Shown here: piece by piece, positions 34,984 through 63,000 of the stretch
How positions within the stretch are numbered: the stretch's first letter is position 1
Layout of the letters: each line of letters begins with the position of its first letter
Source of the DNA: Sutcliffiella horikoshii
GTDB lineage: Bacteria > Bacillota > Bacilli > Bacillales > Bacillaceae_I
NCBI RefSeq assembly: GCF_002157855.1
Contig: NZ_CP020880.1
Coordinates: 2,728,001-2,792,000 of the forward strand
Direction of reading: 5' to 3'
DNA length: 64,000 nt
Made by a program: the position numbers and the translations under genes
Notes under the pieces: model-generated
The model's database searches: none
What the model was told of the DNA's origin: nothing
What the model saw: only the letters and a program-made list of their open reading frames with translations

Positions 34984-35300
34984 AAAACAAAAAAACTCTC
35001 ACCCCCAAGATTATTCATCTTGAGGACGAGAGTTGTTAACTTCGTGGTACCACCCCAGTTTGTTGACATGTTACCATATCAACCTCTTCGGGTACTTTTG
35101 TTTTTTAACAAACAATTATACCCTATCTCTATAACGGGAGATCCCGTCGCAGTATCACTAAGAAACCTTAGATCCGTGCAAAGGCTCAGAGGCTTTTTTC
35201 ATTAAGGTCATTATTGCTTCTTCTCACCTACCGAAGCTCTCTGGAAATAATGCATCTTAATTACTCTTCTCTTCACAGCCGTATGTTCCGTATGTTTTTT
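34984..35300 (-). promoter_or_regulatory. T-box leader upstream of lysyl-tRNA synthetase
   Basis: Minus strand: the T-box core GGGGTGGTACCACG (35056-35043) is followed by a terminator with stem AACTCTCGTCC.../...GGTGAGAGTT and TTTTTTT near 34990. Upstream is a Stem I with AGAGAGCTTCGGTAGGTGAGAA (about 35245-35225) and a lysine codon AAA in ATGAAAAAAGCC near 35200, the likely specifier. Uncharged tRNA-Lys would stabilise the antiterminator and let lysS be read. Confidence 0.92.
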
Positions 35301-54979: not shown

Positions 54980-56775
54980 TTAAGAAGTTAGGGTAATAAA
55001 TTCTTCAACATCTCTAACACATAATTCAATGCCTTTTTCCCAAAACGCTTCAGATGTAATATCTTCCCCTAAATGTTTTATCACTAAATCCTCTGTGGAC
55101 ATACTTCCTGAATCCCGAAGCAAGGCTAAATAATCTTTTTCAAATTCTTTTCCCTTTTCCTTTGCTTTAGCATAAATACATAATGAAAATATATATCCAA
55201 ATGTATACGGAAAATTATAAAATGGAGATTTAGTAATATAATAGTGTGGTGTCCAAGCCCATGAATGGATCGAAGGATTATCAAAAGAACCGACATATCC
55301 TTCATTTATTGCTTCGTGCATAATTTCATTTAACCGTGAAGATGAAACAATCCCAGCTTTACGTTCCTCATAAAATCTCTCTTCAAACAGGAACCTAGAA
55401 TGAATATTCATGAAATTCATGACACTACGCTTTAATTTTTCATCTAGTAAAAACAACTTTTCTTCACCGGATTCTGCTTTTTCCATTGATGCATCCAATA
55501 TGATCATTTCGGAAAATGTAGAGGCAGTTTCAGCAATACACATTGGGTATTGTCTATTTATACCGTTAATAGATTTCATTGCATGGTTATGAAACGCGTG
55601 ACCTAGTTCATGTGCCAAAGTTAATACATTAGTGATTCTATTACCATAGGTCATAAATATTCTTGATTCACCAGAAATCGGGAAACTTGCACAAAATGCT
55701 GCCATTGATTTATTCGGGCGGTCTTCTGCCTCAATCCACTCAATATTAAATACCTGGCGGGAGAAATTTTCTAATTCAGTCCCAAACTGGCTAAAGTGCT
55801 CCAAAATAAAATTTACAGCTTCTTCATACTTTATTTTTTGGTTAGTGTTCTTTATGGGAGCCCAAAAGTTATACGACTTCATTTTTGTATGGCCATACAT
55901 GTTGGCTTTTCGGTTTAAATATTTAATAAAAGGTTGTTTATTTTTACTTACCACTTTCCACATTGCACTCAGGGTTTCTTCATTTATACGATTTTCCATT
56001 AACGGCTCTTCAAGGATATTCTCCAATTTTCGTTTTTTGTACACCTGTAACCGGAAGCCTGCAATATGGTTTAGTATTTTTGCAAATTGTTCTTTTTTCT
56101 CTTCCCAAATCTCTTCTAAAGCATAATAAGATTCTTTACGAACCTCTTCATTGAGGTGTGAGCGTAGATTTATCGCTTGAGGCACAGATAATTCATTTCT
56201 TTCTCCGTCGACCTGAATATTTACTTTTATGCTACCAATAAGTGAATGATAGAACTGGCCCCAGGCATGATACCCATCAACCATTAGATCAGACACTAAA
56301 CTTTCTTCATCGTCTGTTAGATGCATGTCAGCTTTTTTACGCCATTCATTAAGGATAAATTTATAGGGATTTAAATCTGCAGTATCTAGCATATCTTCCC
56401 ACAGATTATGGTCAGTTTTTACAAGTATCTTCTGTAGTTTTTTAAACCTGCATCAAAACGAGCACTAATAGAAGATGTCTTCCCTTTAAGTGTTGGAGCA
56501 TTTTGATCTTGAGGATTCTGAGCAAGGAGACATGTTATATAGGAGTTTGCTTGTGATAGATTAATTCGTATGCATCCTATGTTGTCGATTAAATCCGCAA
56601 CTTTAGATGAATGATTAATTTCTTTTGGTGTATTAAAAAAATTCAATCCTTCTTCTAAACTAAACACTTTGGATTCTATGTGACTTATATGGTCAAGAAA
56701 TTGAGTTGACGCACTTCCATCTGGATAAAGCTTATCTAAATTCCATACTTGGCTGTACTTAGTTTCTTCTTTCAT
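54980..56775 (-). pseudogene. M3 oligoendopeptidase F-like, split by a -1 frameshift
   Basis: The N-terminal 118 residues (56775-56419) run SQVWNLDKLYPDG to DAGLKN and stop. The remaining frame resumes KLQKILVKTDHNLWEDM and carries the M3 zinc site HELGHAFHN with the downstream Glu (CIAETASTFSE). The junction is a run of six A (minus strand near 56444-56439); seven would join GLKKLQK. Full size would be about 600 residues, normal for PepF. The catalytic part could only be made from an internal ATG (56392) with poor context. Confidence 0.85.
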
Positions 56776-59571: not shown

Positions 59572-60063
59572 TCACTTCTCACTGACAGAAGTTTGATAAT
59601 CGTAGATATCATTATTAACAATATATCCATGCACTTTTACTGAGTTTGGAATTAAGGGGTGCTTTATTATGAACTCTATATTATTTTGAATGATACTCTC
59701 TATATTGCTTGACCCACTTAGCCATTTCATCACATCATTTCCTCCGACGGCTTTTATATAATTGAGAGTTTGAATTACCTCTACATTTATCCCCTCTTCT
59801 TCCATTTGGGCATATAGATGTTCTGGATTAATAGAGAACCCTTTGTCGTATTTGTCCACAACAATATAAATTTCTTCTATTTTTTCCAGATAAACAGCCA
59901 ATATTATATTCCTCATAAGAGAACTATAGCCTTGTAATATTTCTGCTCCATAGCTATTGATAATAACTAAGTCCTCTGATTTTCTTTTTGTAATGTCTGT
60001 AAAAAACCTTTCTATTTTTCTATCTAAACCTGTTATTACTAATGCTTTTTTGATATTCCCCAT
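59572..60063 (-). CDS. Degenerate beta-carbonic-anhydrase-like protein
   Basis: The 163-residue protein keeps the beta-CA core order: DLVIINSYGAEI (the strand and Asp-Arg-like region, with the usual Cys/Asp ligands not obvious), then MRNIILAVYLEKIEEIYIVV and KYDKGFS where enzymes have HTDCGM. The zinc His/Cys are missing, so catalysis is doubtful. It follows sbtA by 11 bases. It may be a regulatory partner of SbtA, a role played in cyanobacteria by the PII-like SbtB. Confidence 0.7.
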   Translation of the reverse strand: MGNIKKALVITGLDRKIERFFTDITKRKSEDLVIINSYGAEILQGYSSLMRNIILAVYLEKIEEIYIVVDKYDKGFSINPEHLYAQMEEEGINVEVIQTLNYIKAVGGNDVMKWLSGSSNIESIIQNNIEFIIKHPLIPNSVKVHGYIVNNDIYDYQTSVSEK

Positions 60064-60074
60064 GTTTATACCTC

Positions 60075-61082
60075 CTAATTAAGCAATTTTGCTATTTCAT
60101 AATATAATGGGATTCCAATAATTAAATTTAATGGGAATGTTACACCTAGCGATAATCCCAAATAAATAGAAGGATTCGCTTCTGGTACAGATGTTTTTAA
60201 TGCGGCTGGTGCAGCAATATAAGAAGCGCTGCCTGCTAAGACTCCCATCAATGTAGCTCCACCTAGTGATAAACCTGTAAAGCTTCCAATATAAACTCCT
60301 AATGTTCCCAAAAACAAAGGGGTACTTAAACCAAATATTAAAAGCTTTACTCCGTGCTGCCTAACTTCTGGTAATCGTTGTCCGGCTATTAGTCCCATAT
60401 TTAATAAGAATAGAATGAGAACACTATAATATAAATCCATGAACAGGGGTTTCACCATTGGAATAATCTCTTCACCAAGAGCCAAGCCGATCAATAAGCT
60501 ACCAAGTAAAAGCAAGATACTTTTACCAAAAAGGCTTTCTCTGATTACTTTTTTATCAAATAATTTGATGGATGCTGGTACAAACCCTATGCTATGAGTC
60601 GGCACATTTAATGTAGTTTTGTTTTTTTCTATTATTTTCATTAAAAAGATAGAAACCAAAATTGCTGGGCTTTCCATCAACACAACCATTGCATTCATAA
60701 ATCCTTCATAATCTGTACCATTGCTATCGAGAAAAGAAATGGCAGCCCCATACGTAACAATACTTATAGATCCATAGGTAGCTGCAAGACCAATGGAGTT
60801 TTTAAAATCCATCTTCATCAAACGCATAATAAAAAGGATGATAAAGGGGATTATCGCCCCTATTAGCAGAGTGGCTATAATGGGTCTAATAACAGAATGA
60901 AGAGAGTATTGAGAAAGTTCGATTCCGCCTTTAAGCCCTATGGCAATTAGAAGATAGATGCTCAAACCTTCACTTAGCCCATTCGGAAACTTTAAATCGG
61001 ATTTAAACATTGCTGCTAGAAGTCCTAAAACAAAGAACAGGACTACAGGTGATAATAAGTTTTGTATAATAATTTCTGACAT
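60075..61082 (-). CDS. sbtA: SbtA-family sodium-dependent bicarbonate transporter
   Basis: The 335-residue protein has ten or so membrane helices. The family pattern includes LAATYGSISIVTYGAAISFL, NAMVVLMESPAILVSIFLMK and ATLMGVLAGSASYIAAPAAL, two inverted halves typical of SbtA (PF05982). Expected to import bicarbonate with sodium. It lies between DUF2294/MpsC and the carbonic-anhydrase-like gene. Confidence 0.93.
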   Translation of the reverse strand: MSEIIIQNLLSPVVLFFVLGLLAAMFKSDLKFPNGLSEGLSIYLLIAIGLKGGIELSQYSLHSVIRPIIATLLIGAIIPFIILFIMRLMKMDFKNSIGLAATYGSISIVTYGAAISFLDSNGTDYEGFMNAMVVLMESPAILVSIFLMKIIEKNKTTLNVPTHSIGFVPASIKLFDKKVIRESLFGKSILLLLGSLLIGLALGEEIIPMVKPLFMDLYYSVLILFLLNMGLIAGQRLPEVRQHGVKLLIFGLSTPLFLGTLGVYIGSFTGLSLGGATLMGVLAGSASYIAAPAALKTSVPEANPSIYLGLSLGVTFPLNLIIGIPLYYEIAKLLN

Positions 61083-61114
61083 TGCAGTCTTCCCTCCTAC
61101 GTATTATTCAATAA

Positions 61115-61197
61115 AAAAAACCGACAAATCCAGAAAAAATAGCCGTTTAAGCCATTTTTCCATCATTGTCGGTTTACTTCCAATTGTTATATAAACC
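61115..61197 (-). promoter_or_regulatory. Attenuator-like hairpin upstream of sbtA
   Basis: RNA from the minus strand: AAACCGACAA pairs TTGTCGGTTT around an inner stem (GGAAAAAT.../...ATTTTTTC), followed by TTTTTTTT. The T-run ends 18-20 bases before the sbtA ribosome site (GTAGGAGGG). Upstream GGTTTA (61197-61192) can pair TAAACC in the 5' arm (61176-61171), a competing antiterminator stem. Confidence 0.7.
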
Positions 61198-61221
61198 TTT
61201 GGAAAGTCTCCCTGCTTATCT

Positions 61222-61590
61222 TTATTTTTTTCCAACTATCTCCTCGAAGTTATTATAGAGTTTAAAGACCATGACCCTCTCTCCTGTCACAGTACTAATA
61301 TCTGTATAAAAGCTTTTCGTATCTTCCCCAGTAATATTTTTAATGATTTCTTTGAGCCCTTCAATCCCAGACTCGACTAAATCGGAACGAGTTCTTTTAA
61401 TTGATATCATTCCTTCTTTCGTACCACATATAGCCAACTCTGCAGGTGATAAAATCCCTTTTAGGTTCACAATGATCATGTCACGCAATATATCTGTTTT
61501 TACTGACACAGAACCACGACCCAAATAGTCTTTTTCCCATTGTGTCATCGCTTTACTAATTTCAGATTCAATCAAACCTTTTGATTTCAC
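61222..61590 (-). CDS. DUF2294 / MpsC-like protein
   Basis: A protein of 122 residues from GTG 61590 (GAGGAGG 7 bases upstream). Family pattern: SEISKAMTQWEKDYLGRGSV, then DILRDMIIVNLKGILSPAE and SDLVESGIEGLKEIIKNITG. DUF2294 proteins are annotated MpsC and accompany the MpsAB dissolved-inorganic-carbon / sodium system. Here it precedes SbtA in one direction. Confidence 0.85.
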   Translation of the reverse strand: MKSKGLIESEISKAMTQWEKDYLGRGSVSVKTDILRDMIIVNLKGILSPAELAICGTKEGMISIKRTRSDLVESGIEGLKEIIKNITGEDTKSFYTDISTVTGERVMVFKLYNNFEEIVGKK

Positions 61591-61619
61591 AGTTATTCCT
61601 CCTCTTACATAACCAATAA

Positions 61620-61676
61620 AAAAATCGGCATATCTCTTAACATCATTCTACTGTTAAGAAATATACCGATTTATCG
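61620..61676 (-). promoter_or_regulatory. Attenuator-like terminator upstream of DUF2294
   Basis: RNA from the minus strand: AAATCGGTATATTTCTTAAC and GTTAAGAGATATGCCGATTT form a long stem (few mismatches) followed by TTTTTTTATTG, 15-20 bases before the ribosome site. An upstream ACTGTTAA (61739-61732) is perfectly complementary to TTAACAGT in the 5' arm (61657-61650), so the two structures exclude each other. Confidence 0.7.
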
Positions 61677-61846
61677 TAATCTCGTCCAAAAATTGTGCCA
61701 GAAAAGACTTTTTCACCCTGCCAATCAAATATTAACAGTGCGCTAAAGCATTCTAAGTACTCAGAAAGAATCCTGATCTGTCGGTTATTAATTTAAATAA
61801 TACTTTACCTATAAAATTAAAGGATGTCAATCACTATATTAGAGAA
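61677..61846 (-). promoter_or_regulatory. Promoter and leader RNA of the DUF2294-sbtA unit
   Basis: Minus strand: TTGACA, 17 bp, TAAAGT (about 61830-61802) gives a leader of roughly 200 bases before DUF2294. It holds an inner hairpin (ATTCT / AGAAT around 61775-61750), the antiterminator strand and a GGCAGGGTGAAAAAGTC stretch. I do not recognise any known riboswitch class in it. Confidence 0.55.
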
Positions 61847-62057
61847 ACAATGCAAGGATCTCTAAGTTTGTTGGAGTAACATTAATGCTATTACCATTAA
61901 AAGGGAGATGCATAACAGTGGATGCACAACGAGCACATGAAATCGCTTCTTCTCCAACTATGGCTAATGTATTATATAATGGCGAAGGAACATTAATTAT
62001 TTTGATTTCTAAGTGATTCTCTATTAATGGATTGAGGAGGTTTTTCAAACCATCCAT
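61839..62057 (-). CDS. Possible short ORF at the DUF3231 3' end
   Basis: The 72-codon frame overlaps the DUF3231 stop by 65 bases and contains ISCARCASTV and a C-terminal INVTPTNLEILAL that could be a real small (spore-associated) protein. No ribosome site is visible at the ATG. Kept at low confidence. Confidence 0.3.
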   Translation of the reverse strand: MDGLKNLLNPLIENHLEIKIINVPSPLYNTLAIVGEEAISCARCASTVMHLPFNGNSINVTPTNLEILALFL

Positions 62058-63000
62058 AATTAATTAAGAGTTTTGCACCTTCTTCAGCATAAGCCCCTAC
62101 TCTAATAAGATAACTTTCATAGTTAGCTATTAAATCCTTTCTTAATGATGCTGCAATGGCAAGTCCAAAATCTCCAATACCGATGGCACTTTGCATATTT
62201 GTATGAAATAACATTAATTTATCAGAAAATGGTGGGTCAGTGCTATTTGTAATAGTAGAATCCCATGTAGAGGGATAAGAATTGTCGTCTTCTTTTAGCT
62301 TTATCATAAAATTTTCAACCATTTTCTTTCCCAAGTCATAACCTTCTTTAAAATAATCACTTATTTTTTTGGACTGAGCAACTTGGCTAAACCCTAAAAG
62401 CATGGTTTTCGCGACATTTGCCACTTCGATATTAACACCTAAATGGGCCATTTCTATTCCGAGGAGTGGTCGGCGATGACCTACTAGACCACCAAGGAAT
62501 TTTTTCTCCGTTACATATTCTACTTTATCAGGATACGATATATATGGAGCTCGTATAAAAATACCTTTTTCCTGCATTAGTTCCACATTACTGTCATACA
62601 ACGTTTCTGTTTGGTTTAAAAACTGTTTAAATAATTTACGGACATCACTACGGGCTGATACTGACTTAGCCAAACTGTATGAGTTCAATCCTGTTCTACC
62701 CATATGATGCAGGTAACGCATATATGTTACATCTGAAAAGAGTTTCTTTGCTTGCAAGTTCACATCCTGATCACCAAACCCATTAGGAAGTGGAATACCT
62801 TCTTTTGTAAATAAATCCGATATTTGAGCTACATGTTCTAAAGAATAACTAAGAGCTAGTTCAATAATAGGTATAACATCTTGTTCTTCACAAGTTTGTA
62901 AGAAATGTTTTAATACGCAAATAGACATGGTGTCACCAATATAGGTGCTCCATAACATGGAAATTTCAGCAGAAGTTATTTTGGGTGAGTGTTCAACCAT
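61993..63000 (-). CDS. DUF3231-family protein
   Basis: The 335-residue, largely helical protein has the family's two related halves, each a four-helix bundle (opening TSAEISMLWSTYIGDTMSIC and FLGGLVGHRRPLLGIEMAHL). Function unknown; family members are frequent in spore-formers. Upstream of the DUF2294 unit but probably a separate transcript. Confidence 0.85.
   Translation of the reverse strand: MVEHSPKITSAEISMLWSTYIGDTMSICVLKHFLQTCEEQDVIPIIELALSYSLEHVAQISDLFTKEGIPLPNGFGDQDVNLQAKKLFSDVTYMRYLHHMGRTGLNSYSLAKSVSARSDVRKLFKQFLNQTETLYDSNVELMQEKGIFIRAPYISYPDKVEYVTEKKFLGGLVGHRRPLLGIEMAHLGVNIEVANVAKTMLLGFSQVAQSKKISDYFKEGYDLGKKMVENFMIKLKEDDNSYPSTWDSTITNSTDPPFSDKLMLFHTNMQSAIGIGDFGLAIAASLRKDLIANYESYLIRVGAYAEEGAKLLINYGWFEKPPQSINRESLRNQNN

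Follow-up and report, generated by a model that had tools for sequence, protein, structure and literature searches.

The question raised by this locus is what an sbtA gene does in a Bacillaceae genome between a gene of the MpsC family and one for a protein with a carbonic anhydrase fold, and how such a unit might be controlled. To our knowledge, the way in which carboxysome-free bacteria sense and regulate their supply of CO2 or bicarbonate is largely open. The locus lies in a stretch of 64,000 nucleotides of Sutcliffiella horikoshii (the window: contig NZ_CP020880.1, positions 2,728,001 to 2,792,000). Its three genes are all on the minus strand, as the first-pass annotation had claimed, and Pfam confirms the MpsC and Sbt_1 families (Table 1). 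The leader, below that annotation's upper bound of 61846, is made up of a promoter-like site, two structured RNA elements (R1 and R2) and two terminator-like hairpins; the unit thus reads promoter-like site, R1, terminator, mpsC, R2, terminator, sbtA and CAL, the carbonic-anhydrase-like gene. The promoter-like site is one of the two best among 15 scan matches (shuffles give 12.0), and such a consensus match alone is not evidence of function. All three genes are under purifying selection when compared with two close relatives (dN/dS about 0.3 for CAL, 0.11-0.12 for sbtA and, lowest of the three, 0.04-0.05 for the highly conserved mpsC). These genes, their conserved order, the loss of a zinc site and two covarying RNAs with predicted terminators characterize the locus, and it is probably an inorganic-carbon uptake operon in which SbtA imports HCO3-, CAL is an accessory and R1 and R2 are candidate tandem attenuators. 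The earlier reading of an inorganic-carbon operon is supported to that extent.

Table 1. Features of the sbtA unit in window coordinates; the R1 and R2 sequences of the window are members of the training sets of the models that score them
Feature	Position	Strand	Evidence
Promoter-like site TTGACA-17-TAAAGT	61802-61830	-	Consensus scan, 10/12 positions
R1, candidate attenuator: stem-loop CUUU-AG-CRNNC ... GNNYG-AA-AAAG and a weaker outer helix	61695-61760	-	cmsearch 58.1 bits, E 5.2e-10; covariation
Terminator-like hairpin 1 and T run, just 5' of mpsC	61622-61672	-	Leader fold z -4.6; dedicated terminator search
mpsC (DUF2294/MpsC family), 122 aa	61222-61590	-	Pfam PF10057, E 1.2e-36
R2, candidate attenuator: GGNAG, two-part helix, terminator arm AAACCGAC	61115-61212	-	cmsearch 68.7 bits, E 1.7e-14; covariation
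Terminator-like hairpin 2 and T run (3' part of R2), 5' of sbtA	61118-61175	-	Fold z -5.2; some pairs covary
sbtA, class A Sbt_1 family transporter, 335 aa	60075-61082	-	Pfam PF05982, E 2.3e-112; PDB 7cye, E 5e-29
CAL, beta-carbonic-anhydrase-fold protein without zinc site, 163 aa	59572-60063	-	Sequence and predicted fold

The conservation of this gene order was studied in 299 genomes of the order, in which 83 full-length SbtA loci were split into four classes (A to D) by HMM score, after inspection of the data. The mpsC gene lies 5' of sbtA at all 59 class A loci, directly so, and at all 4 class B loci, and CAL follows sbtA at 32 of the 59 class A loci and was not found at the other 27; these neighbourhood counts omit three loci from outside the sample (L032, L036 and L039) and two broken sbtA copies (G119 and G297). 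In one of the gene-order comparisons, the 22 loci were picked for a close match or a short frame and are not a random draw. The conserved three-gene order predicted by the first-pass annotation is therefore borne out, most completely for mpsC, and the free variation of neighbours that would have spoken against it was looked for among these relatives and not seen. Chance clustering of mpsC, sbtA and CAL is ruled out by the same conservation. The presence of CAL has changed repeatedly, as well-supported branches of the SbtA tree force at least seven gains or losses. The two accessory genes also accompany DabAB/MpsAB (DAC), an unrelated transporter: among 32 dabA loci, mpsC is present at 26 and CAL at 13 within the fetched stretch. 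The S. horikoshii genome has no match to DabA (PF10070), so that its unit is not itself of the DabAB/MpsAB type.

CAL matches the beta-carbonic anhydrase of PDB 6y04 in sequence (E 2.7e-8), and its AlphaFold2 model (pLDDT 81.8) matches the same structure in Foldseek (E 3.1e-12, TM 0.80), with no Pfam match at E<=1 and no NCBIfam match below 0.045. A placement outside the beta-carbonic anhydrase superfamily, which would have undone the earlier interpretation, was searched for and is ruled out by these two matches. The zinc ligands of these enzymes, a Cys and a His-x-x-Cys at positions 38, 96 and 99 in S. carnosus (PMC8552792), are replaced by Gly12, Asp70 and Asp73 (positions counted by hand), so that the carbonic anhydrase fold without a metal site that had been proposed was indeed recovered, as a predicted fold. 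CAL resembles the beta-carbonic anhydrases TvaCA1 (6y04) and Cab (1g5c) in fold and sequence and differs from them by the missing ligands, by a shorter N-terminus and by the lack of an Asp/Arg dyad, Asp14 being kept and Lys replacing Arg in a motif that the family does not retain. The zinc site is intact in none of the 48 carbonic-anhydrase-fold frames on a transporter's strand. Since the frames were sorted by the motif itself (21 canonical, 48 not), the informative part of this split is their placement: all 48 non-canonical frames are on the transporter's strand, and the intact ones in sbtA stretches (L038, L058 and L091) are on the opposite strand. Retention of the fold under purifying selection could be explained by a working carbonic anhydrase, metal-free or with another metal site. 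Nevertheless, the loss of the Cys, the His-x-x-Cys and the dyad across the family, together with a canonical beta-carbonic anhydrase encoded elsewhere in the S. horikoshii genome, makes this highly improbable. The proposal of a subunit role for CAL in SbtA is not supported as it was put, as its absence from many units indicates an accessory rather than an obligate subunit and its occurrence beside DabAB indicates a partner role that is not specific to SbtA. CAL is probably a pseudo-carbonic-anhydrase, retained as an accessory, probably regulatory protein able to serve SbtA or DabAB. According to PMC8552792, a gene adjoining mpsAB in Bacillus putatively encodes a carbonic anhydrase; in our sample, all 13 CAL relatives linked to Dab lack the metal site, a comparison with those genes made by description only. 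Eight plasmid records match CAL, all below 60% identity. No description of CAL with SbtA was found in the literature searched, among the matches listed.

The strongest evidence at the locus concerns R1 and R2, which were missing from the first-pass account. In the training sets, the covariation of R1 is 0.267 versus 0.153 in shuffled alignments (reached by 0 of 500) and that of R2 is 0.317 versus 0.153; at other loci the values are 0.343 versus 0.185 and 0.420 versus 0.163, respectively, the test sets (A7 and A8) being free of training sequences but containing close relatives, with rows aligned to the model and one of the 32 rows of A7 an antisense match (L198). The outer helix of R1 pairs in just 53-57% of cells, and for two of the five pair measures in the R1 training set, 7 and 8 of 500 shuffles did as well as the real alignment. 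As the R1 seeds were picked by a motif pattern and the R2 seeds by a pattern including the terminator arms, the invariance of these parts is partly selected. Plain terminators were rejected as an account of both elements, since helices 5' of the terminator covary. R1 and R2 share with transcription-attenuating riboswitches and leader RNAs a conserved, covarying structure in the leaders of functionally coherent genes and a predicted terminator on the 3' side; this putative expression platform consists of predicted hairpins with T runs, and a terminator scan restricted to loops of 3-8 found none. They differ from known elements in being two distinct structures arranged in tandem, often with a gene in between, and in having no match in Rfam 15 at gathering score for the window and seven loci; at E<=5, window positions 61000-62000 gave microRNA and snoRNA families only, far below their cut-offs. 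No earlier description of either RNA was found in the literature searched, among the matches listed.

The genomic distribution of the two RNAs is centred on inorganic-carbon transporters. R1 has 59 matches genome-wide, 49 of them at class A/B sbtA or dabBA, and 79 of the 90 strong R2 matches (E<=2.9e-6, a threshold set after inspection) precede class A/B sbtA, dabBA or the sbtA-sbtB pair of class D. Of the remaining 11, one is located farther 5' of sbtA-sbtB and the rest occur at genes for isocitrate dehydrogenase, DUF6671, MpsC or CAL. Four weak R2 matches (L243-L246) resemble plain terminators by eye. R2 follows R1 within 1 kb in 57 of 59 cases, at 8-117 nt in 24 and at 427-607 nt in 33. As an internal control, neither element was found at any of the 16 loci of class C sbtA paralogues. 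Under stricter filters, R1 was not found at 35 and R2 not at 19 of the 65 class A/B sbtA places, which include the two broken copies; these absences are soft, since genome-wide scoring was limited to the 13-17 best candidates of each genome. Searching 53 loci again gave eight further R1 matches at E<=1, most of them weak and some already among the genome-wide ones. In a phylum-wide search beyond the order, R2 occurred in 3 of 299 genomes, one being that of S. horikoshii and the other two, with weaker matches, having it after an mpsC end placed by eye. One or both RNAs also lie 5' of NADP-isocitrate-dehydrogenase-like genes (R2 alone in G159; G165, G189 and G214) and of DUF6671-like genes (G035, G081 and G142, followed in the latter two by the same dehydrogenase), the family searches for these genes having covered L200 and L204 only. 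The icd-II motif, described from a betaproteobacterium (PMC8632094), is another RNA with an NADP-isocitrate dehydrogenase gene on its 3' side, a likeness by description.

The substrate of the class A transporters has to be considered in the light of SbtA diversity. Four of the 83 loci encode the cyanobacterial type (class D), with a frame of 107-109 aa located 18-19 nt downstream, of which the one tested is P-II, and with neither mpsC nor CAL beside sbtA. Class A shares with the cyanobacterial SbtA-SbtB system the Pfam family, the conserved Gly and Ser of the Na+ site and a small gene after sbtA, and differs from it in lacking SbtB: none was found beside the sbtA of the window, where CAL occupies that place. 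The small SbtB partner evoked by the first-pass annotation is thus replaced, and not supplemented, in class A, which has mpsC and often CAL instead. Of the published HCO3- contacts (Ser114, Tyr140, Ser324 and Ser327, docked in SbtA; Y140 and S327 are among those listed in PMC8352866), all four are kept in 4/4 class D proteins and two in 62/62 aligned class A proteins, the positions having been placed by hand from the 7cye alignment. The class A changes are Y140 to V, D325 to Y, S327 to A and G328 to A or V. One possibility is therefore that class A SbtA moves another anion, with CAL and MpsC as part of that transport. Yet R2 is also located 5' of every one of the four sbtA genes of class D (directly so in three cases), whose products keep the published contacts, and this links class A with bicarbonate transport of a known kind; the presence of R2 at dabBA as well, and of CAL and MpsC with both class A and dabBA, also makes another anion improbable.

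Several signals could act on R1 and R2, the candidates being inorganic carbon, a metabolite, Na+ or a protein. The elements might sense a metabolite of the TCA cycle or anaplerosis (citrate, isocitrate, 2-oxoglutarate or similar) or Na+, with inorganic-carbon uptake as one output. Their position before dehydrogenase and DUF6671 genes agrees with this, as do the Na+ symport carried out by SbtA (PMC8352866) and, according to the accessible part of PMC6689103, the complementation of a Na+/H+ antiporter mutant by mpsABC. Nevertheless, the dehydrogenase sites are a minority beside the transporter-linked R2 matches, and this reading is less likely than not. A different possibility, rather unlikely in our view, is that R1 and R2 are bound by an RNA-binding protein, which might be MpsC, and do not act as direct riboswitches. 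The conservation of MpsC, the location of mpsC between the two elements at class A loci and the presence of an MpsC-family gene in all 12 RNA-bearing genomes tested would fit this idea. Yet 18 of the 30 RNA-free genomes tested carry the family too, with many long paralogues. No PDB structure matches the MpsC model (pLDDT 89.7) at E<=0.001, which means that no RNA-binding fold is shown; its weaker matches include many ribosomal proteins. We know of no role for MpsC, no description of it with SbtA was found in the literature searched, among the matches listed, and nothing related was found there for DUF2294 or ybcF/ybcC/ybcI. In S. aureus, the accessible part of PMC6689103 reports that deletion of mpsC had no effect on growth and that mpsA was down-regulated at 5% CO2. 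It is also unlikely that R1, R2 or both are riboswitches sensing CO2 or HCO3- directly, as master attenuators of carbon uptake in Bacillales that switch class A SbtA, SbtA-SbtB and DabAB along with isocitrate dehydrogenase, with CAL, a pseudo-carbonic anhydrase, reporting carbon status to the transporter at hand. A metabolite signal would account for the isocitrate dehydrogenase genes among the targets no less well than CO2 would.

Whatever the signal, R1 and R2 are likely to act in tandem to attenuate transcription in an inorganic-carbon regulon, and their recurrence before different carbon-import genes in related bacteria suggests that the supply of inorganic carbon is switched by RNA. When inorganic carbon is short, a signal would let RNA polymerase pass the two terminators, and SbtA made on read-through would import HCO3-, probably with Na+; CAL would act as an accessory, probably regulatory protein serving SbtA or DabAB. 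Because it is shared by several inorganic-carbon systems of one order that are otherwise unrelated, such a leader RNA offers a direct handle on the regulation of carbon supply. R1 and R2 predict a regulon and tie the uncharacterised CAL, MpsC and DUF6671 proteins to carbon supply, and they make it possible to test with small constructs whether an RNA senses inorganic carbon or carbon status.

The gene set described in the first-pass annotation, in which a gene of the DUF2294/MpsC family (mpsC) and sbtA are accompanied by a carbonic-anhydrase-like protein (CAL) devoid of a metal site, is confirmed by the open reading frames, by Pfam and by the absence of the zinc ligands from the window CAL. 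No family was assigned to CAL by Pfam or NCBIfam profiles at E<=0.01. Its sequence matches the beta-carbonic anhydrase 6y04 in a PDB search (E 2.7e-8), and the same structure is the best Foldseek match (TM 0.80) of its AlphaFold2 model (mean pLDDT 81.8, alignment of 16 sequences), so the proposed beta-carbonic anhydrase (CA) homology of this protein holds by both approaches. Elsewhere, the genome encodes a canonical beta-CA, which carries the motifs CMDTR and HHDCG. Purifying selection is weaker on CAL than on sbtA or mpsC (dN/dS = 0.28-0.31, 0.11-0.12 and 0.04-0.05, respectively, in two comparisons).

Features of the unit and its surroundings, in window positions
Feature	Position	Strand	Description
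T-box leader	35019-35285	-	Rfam RF00230, 108.4 bits
M3-family oligoendopeptidase gene	54980-56392	-	TIGR02290; only profile positions 120-587 matched
118-aa frame	56419-56775	-	directly upstream of the oligoendopeptidase gene
CAL	59572-60063	-	163 aa; PDB sequence match to beta-carbonic anhydrases
sbtA	60075-61082	-	335 aa; Pfam Sbt_1
R2	61115-61212	-	candidate leader RNA upstream of sbtA
mpsC	61222-61590	-	122 aa; Pfam MpsC
R1	61695-61760	-	candidate leader RNA upstream of mpsC
TTGACA-17-TAAAGT	61830-61802	-	promoter-like site
DUF3231 gene	61993-63000	-	upstream of mpsC

The oligoendopeptidase gene may be broken, given its partial profile match and the separate frame upstream. A DUF3231 gene 32% identical to that of the window also lies beyond mpsC at a Dab unit (L043, 2409-3428, - strand).

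Gene order was studied in an order sample of 299 evenly drawn genomes, where Sbt_1 scored above the cut-off in 68 and DabA, from an unrelated inorganic-carbon system, in 32; the loci inspected were 83 with a full-length sbtA and every one of the 32 with dabA. The mpsC-sbtA-CAL order noted in the window recurs in relatives: it is found at 32 of the 59 loci of class A, the HMM-score class of the window sbtA, and it contains 20 of 22 CA-like frames picked by choice, as short or close ones, among matches in 150 relatives, the other two belonging to a DabB-DabA-CAL-mpsC unit. All 59 class A loci have mpsC upstream, as do the four of class B, where CAL is absent (0/4). The 16 class C loci lack both genes, and so do the four of the cyanobacterial-type class D, in which a frame of 107-109 aa follows 18-19 nt downstream (P-II in the single case tested). 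At dabA loci, mpsC is present in 26/32 and CAL in 13/32.

Among CA-fold frames on the transporter strand, the second His and Cys are absent in 48/48 and the first Cys in 44/48. The three intact CAs in sbtA stretches (L038, L058, L091) all lie on the opposite strand. In the CA tree, a single branch (94/99) sets the canonical CAs apart, and the Dab-linked CALs group together (100/98). It is possible, although not proven, that the zinc site was lost once and that CAL then spread to two transporter types, several branches of this tree being long. The earlier suggestion that CAL may be a subunit of SbtA is not supported in its strict sense: mapped onto a quick-method tree of class A SbtA, CAL presence requires 13 changes, at least seven of them forced by well-supported branches. 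CAL also occurs in an mpsC-R2-CAL arrangement with neither sbtA nor dabA directly adjoining (L242), and an R1 leader precedes an apparent remnant that begins like mpsC and ends like CAL (L207). In S. sciuri, B. anthracis and B. subtilis, the gene that immediately follows MpsAB is reported to encode a putative CA (PMC8552792); cyanobacterial SbtC is a different small SbtA-associated protein (PMC13360264).

Synechocystis SbtA contacts HCO3- through Ser114, Tyr140, Ser324 and Ser327 (PMC8352866). All four residues are retained in class D (4/4 proteins). In class A, Ser114 and Ser324 are retained while Tyr140 and Ser327 are replaced in 62/62 aligned proteins; "SbtA" is thus correct as a family name, but class A is linked to bicarbonate transport by association.

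Most class A loci have terminator-like hairpins both ahead of mpsC and in the gap that separates it from sbtA, and conserved stretches precede these hairpins. In the element R1 (69 positions), a 2x2 internal loop separates a CUUU/AAAG helix from a second helix, which ends in a loop; the element R2 (100 positions) has a GGNAG start and a two-part helix, and extends into the terminator AAACCGAC...GUCGGUUU. In the training alignments, 83.1% (R1) and 94.4% (R2) of cells are paired, and covariation (0.267 and 0.317, each vs 0.153 shuffled) was equalled in 0/500 shuffles, although for R1 seven and eight of 500 shuffles reached the observed value of two other measures. At other loci, 85.0% and 96.1% of cells are paired, and covariation is 0.343 vs 0.185 and 0.420 vs 0.163. 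The outermost R1 helix, 53-57% paired, is weak. Both RNAs of the window have folds far more stable than those of shuffled sequences (z -4.6 and -5.2). Neither RNA matched Rfam 15 at gathering score in the window and seven other loci, and no description of either RNA, or of CAL together with SbtA, was found among the papers listed by literature searches.

In the order sample, R1 has 59 matches in 55 genomes and R2 has 90 strong matches (E<=2.9e-6) in 79. Both precede class A/B sbtA (R1 30, R2 46) and dabBA (19 and 30), R2 also preceding class D sbtA-sbtB (3), and neither occurs at any of the 16 class C genes, which serve as an internal negative control. R2 lies within 1 kb downstream of 57/59 R1 matches, in two spacing modes: 24 pairs are 8-117 nt apart, and 33 are 427-607 nt apart, as expected for pairs with mpsC in between. 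The minority targets, several identified by eye, include NADP-isocitrate-dehydrogenase-like genes (G165, G189, G214 and G159, the last with two R2 copies), DUF6671-like genes (G035, G081, G142), mpsC near the end of a contig with an apparent beginning of dabB behind it (G213), mpsC followed by CAL (G231), a lone mpsC (G147) and a remnant (G188). In G086 (L199), a distance of 4 kb separates both RNAs from a class D sbtA-sbtB downstream, and two identical short frames in between suggest a duplicated or inserted segment. Across 18 named genome contigs, two of them canonical-CA loci without the unit, 14 gave an R1 match at E<=0.01 and 15 an R2 match at E<=1e-4, carriers including Sutcliffiella horikoshii, Rossellomorea marisflavi, Jeotgalibacillus soli, Domibacillus antri and Mesobacillus subterraneus. 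In a phylum-wide sample (n=299), R2 was found in the genome of the window, and two further genomes gave weaker matches.

At individual loci, NADP-isocitrate-dehydrogenase-like genes lie behind R1 and/or R2 at L200, L202, L206, L203, L204 and L241, the last with two tandem R2 copies and an mpsC-like gene after the dehydrogenase. DUF6671-like proteins, with a cysteine-rich C-terminal stretch (Pfam PF20376 tested on L204 only), recur in this regulon, downstream of R1-R2 (L203, L204, L201) and, once, directly after sbtA (L070). Elsewhere in the phylum, weaker R2 matches lie immediately behind an apparent mpsC end (L248, L249), with an apparent MFS transporter gene, identified by eye, after that of L248.

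These RNAs may bind either a ligand or a protein. With isocitrate dehydrogenase among the members of the regulon, a metabolite remains a plausible signal. If R1 and R2 bind a protein, MpsC is the obvious candidate; yet its family is also present in genomes without either RNA (18/30 tested), and its predicted model has no informative structural match. The homologous S. aureus mpsA is reported to be down-regulated at 5% CO2 (PMC6689103), which agrees in direction and is silent on RNA. Since one RNA pair stands before different transporter types, is absent from the class C control and is accompanied by predicted terminators, the simplest account is that R1 and R2 form an attenuation system common to these inorganic-carbon supply units.
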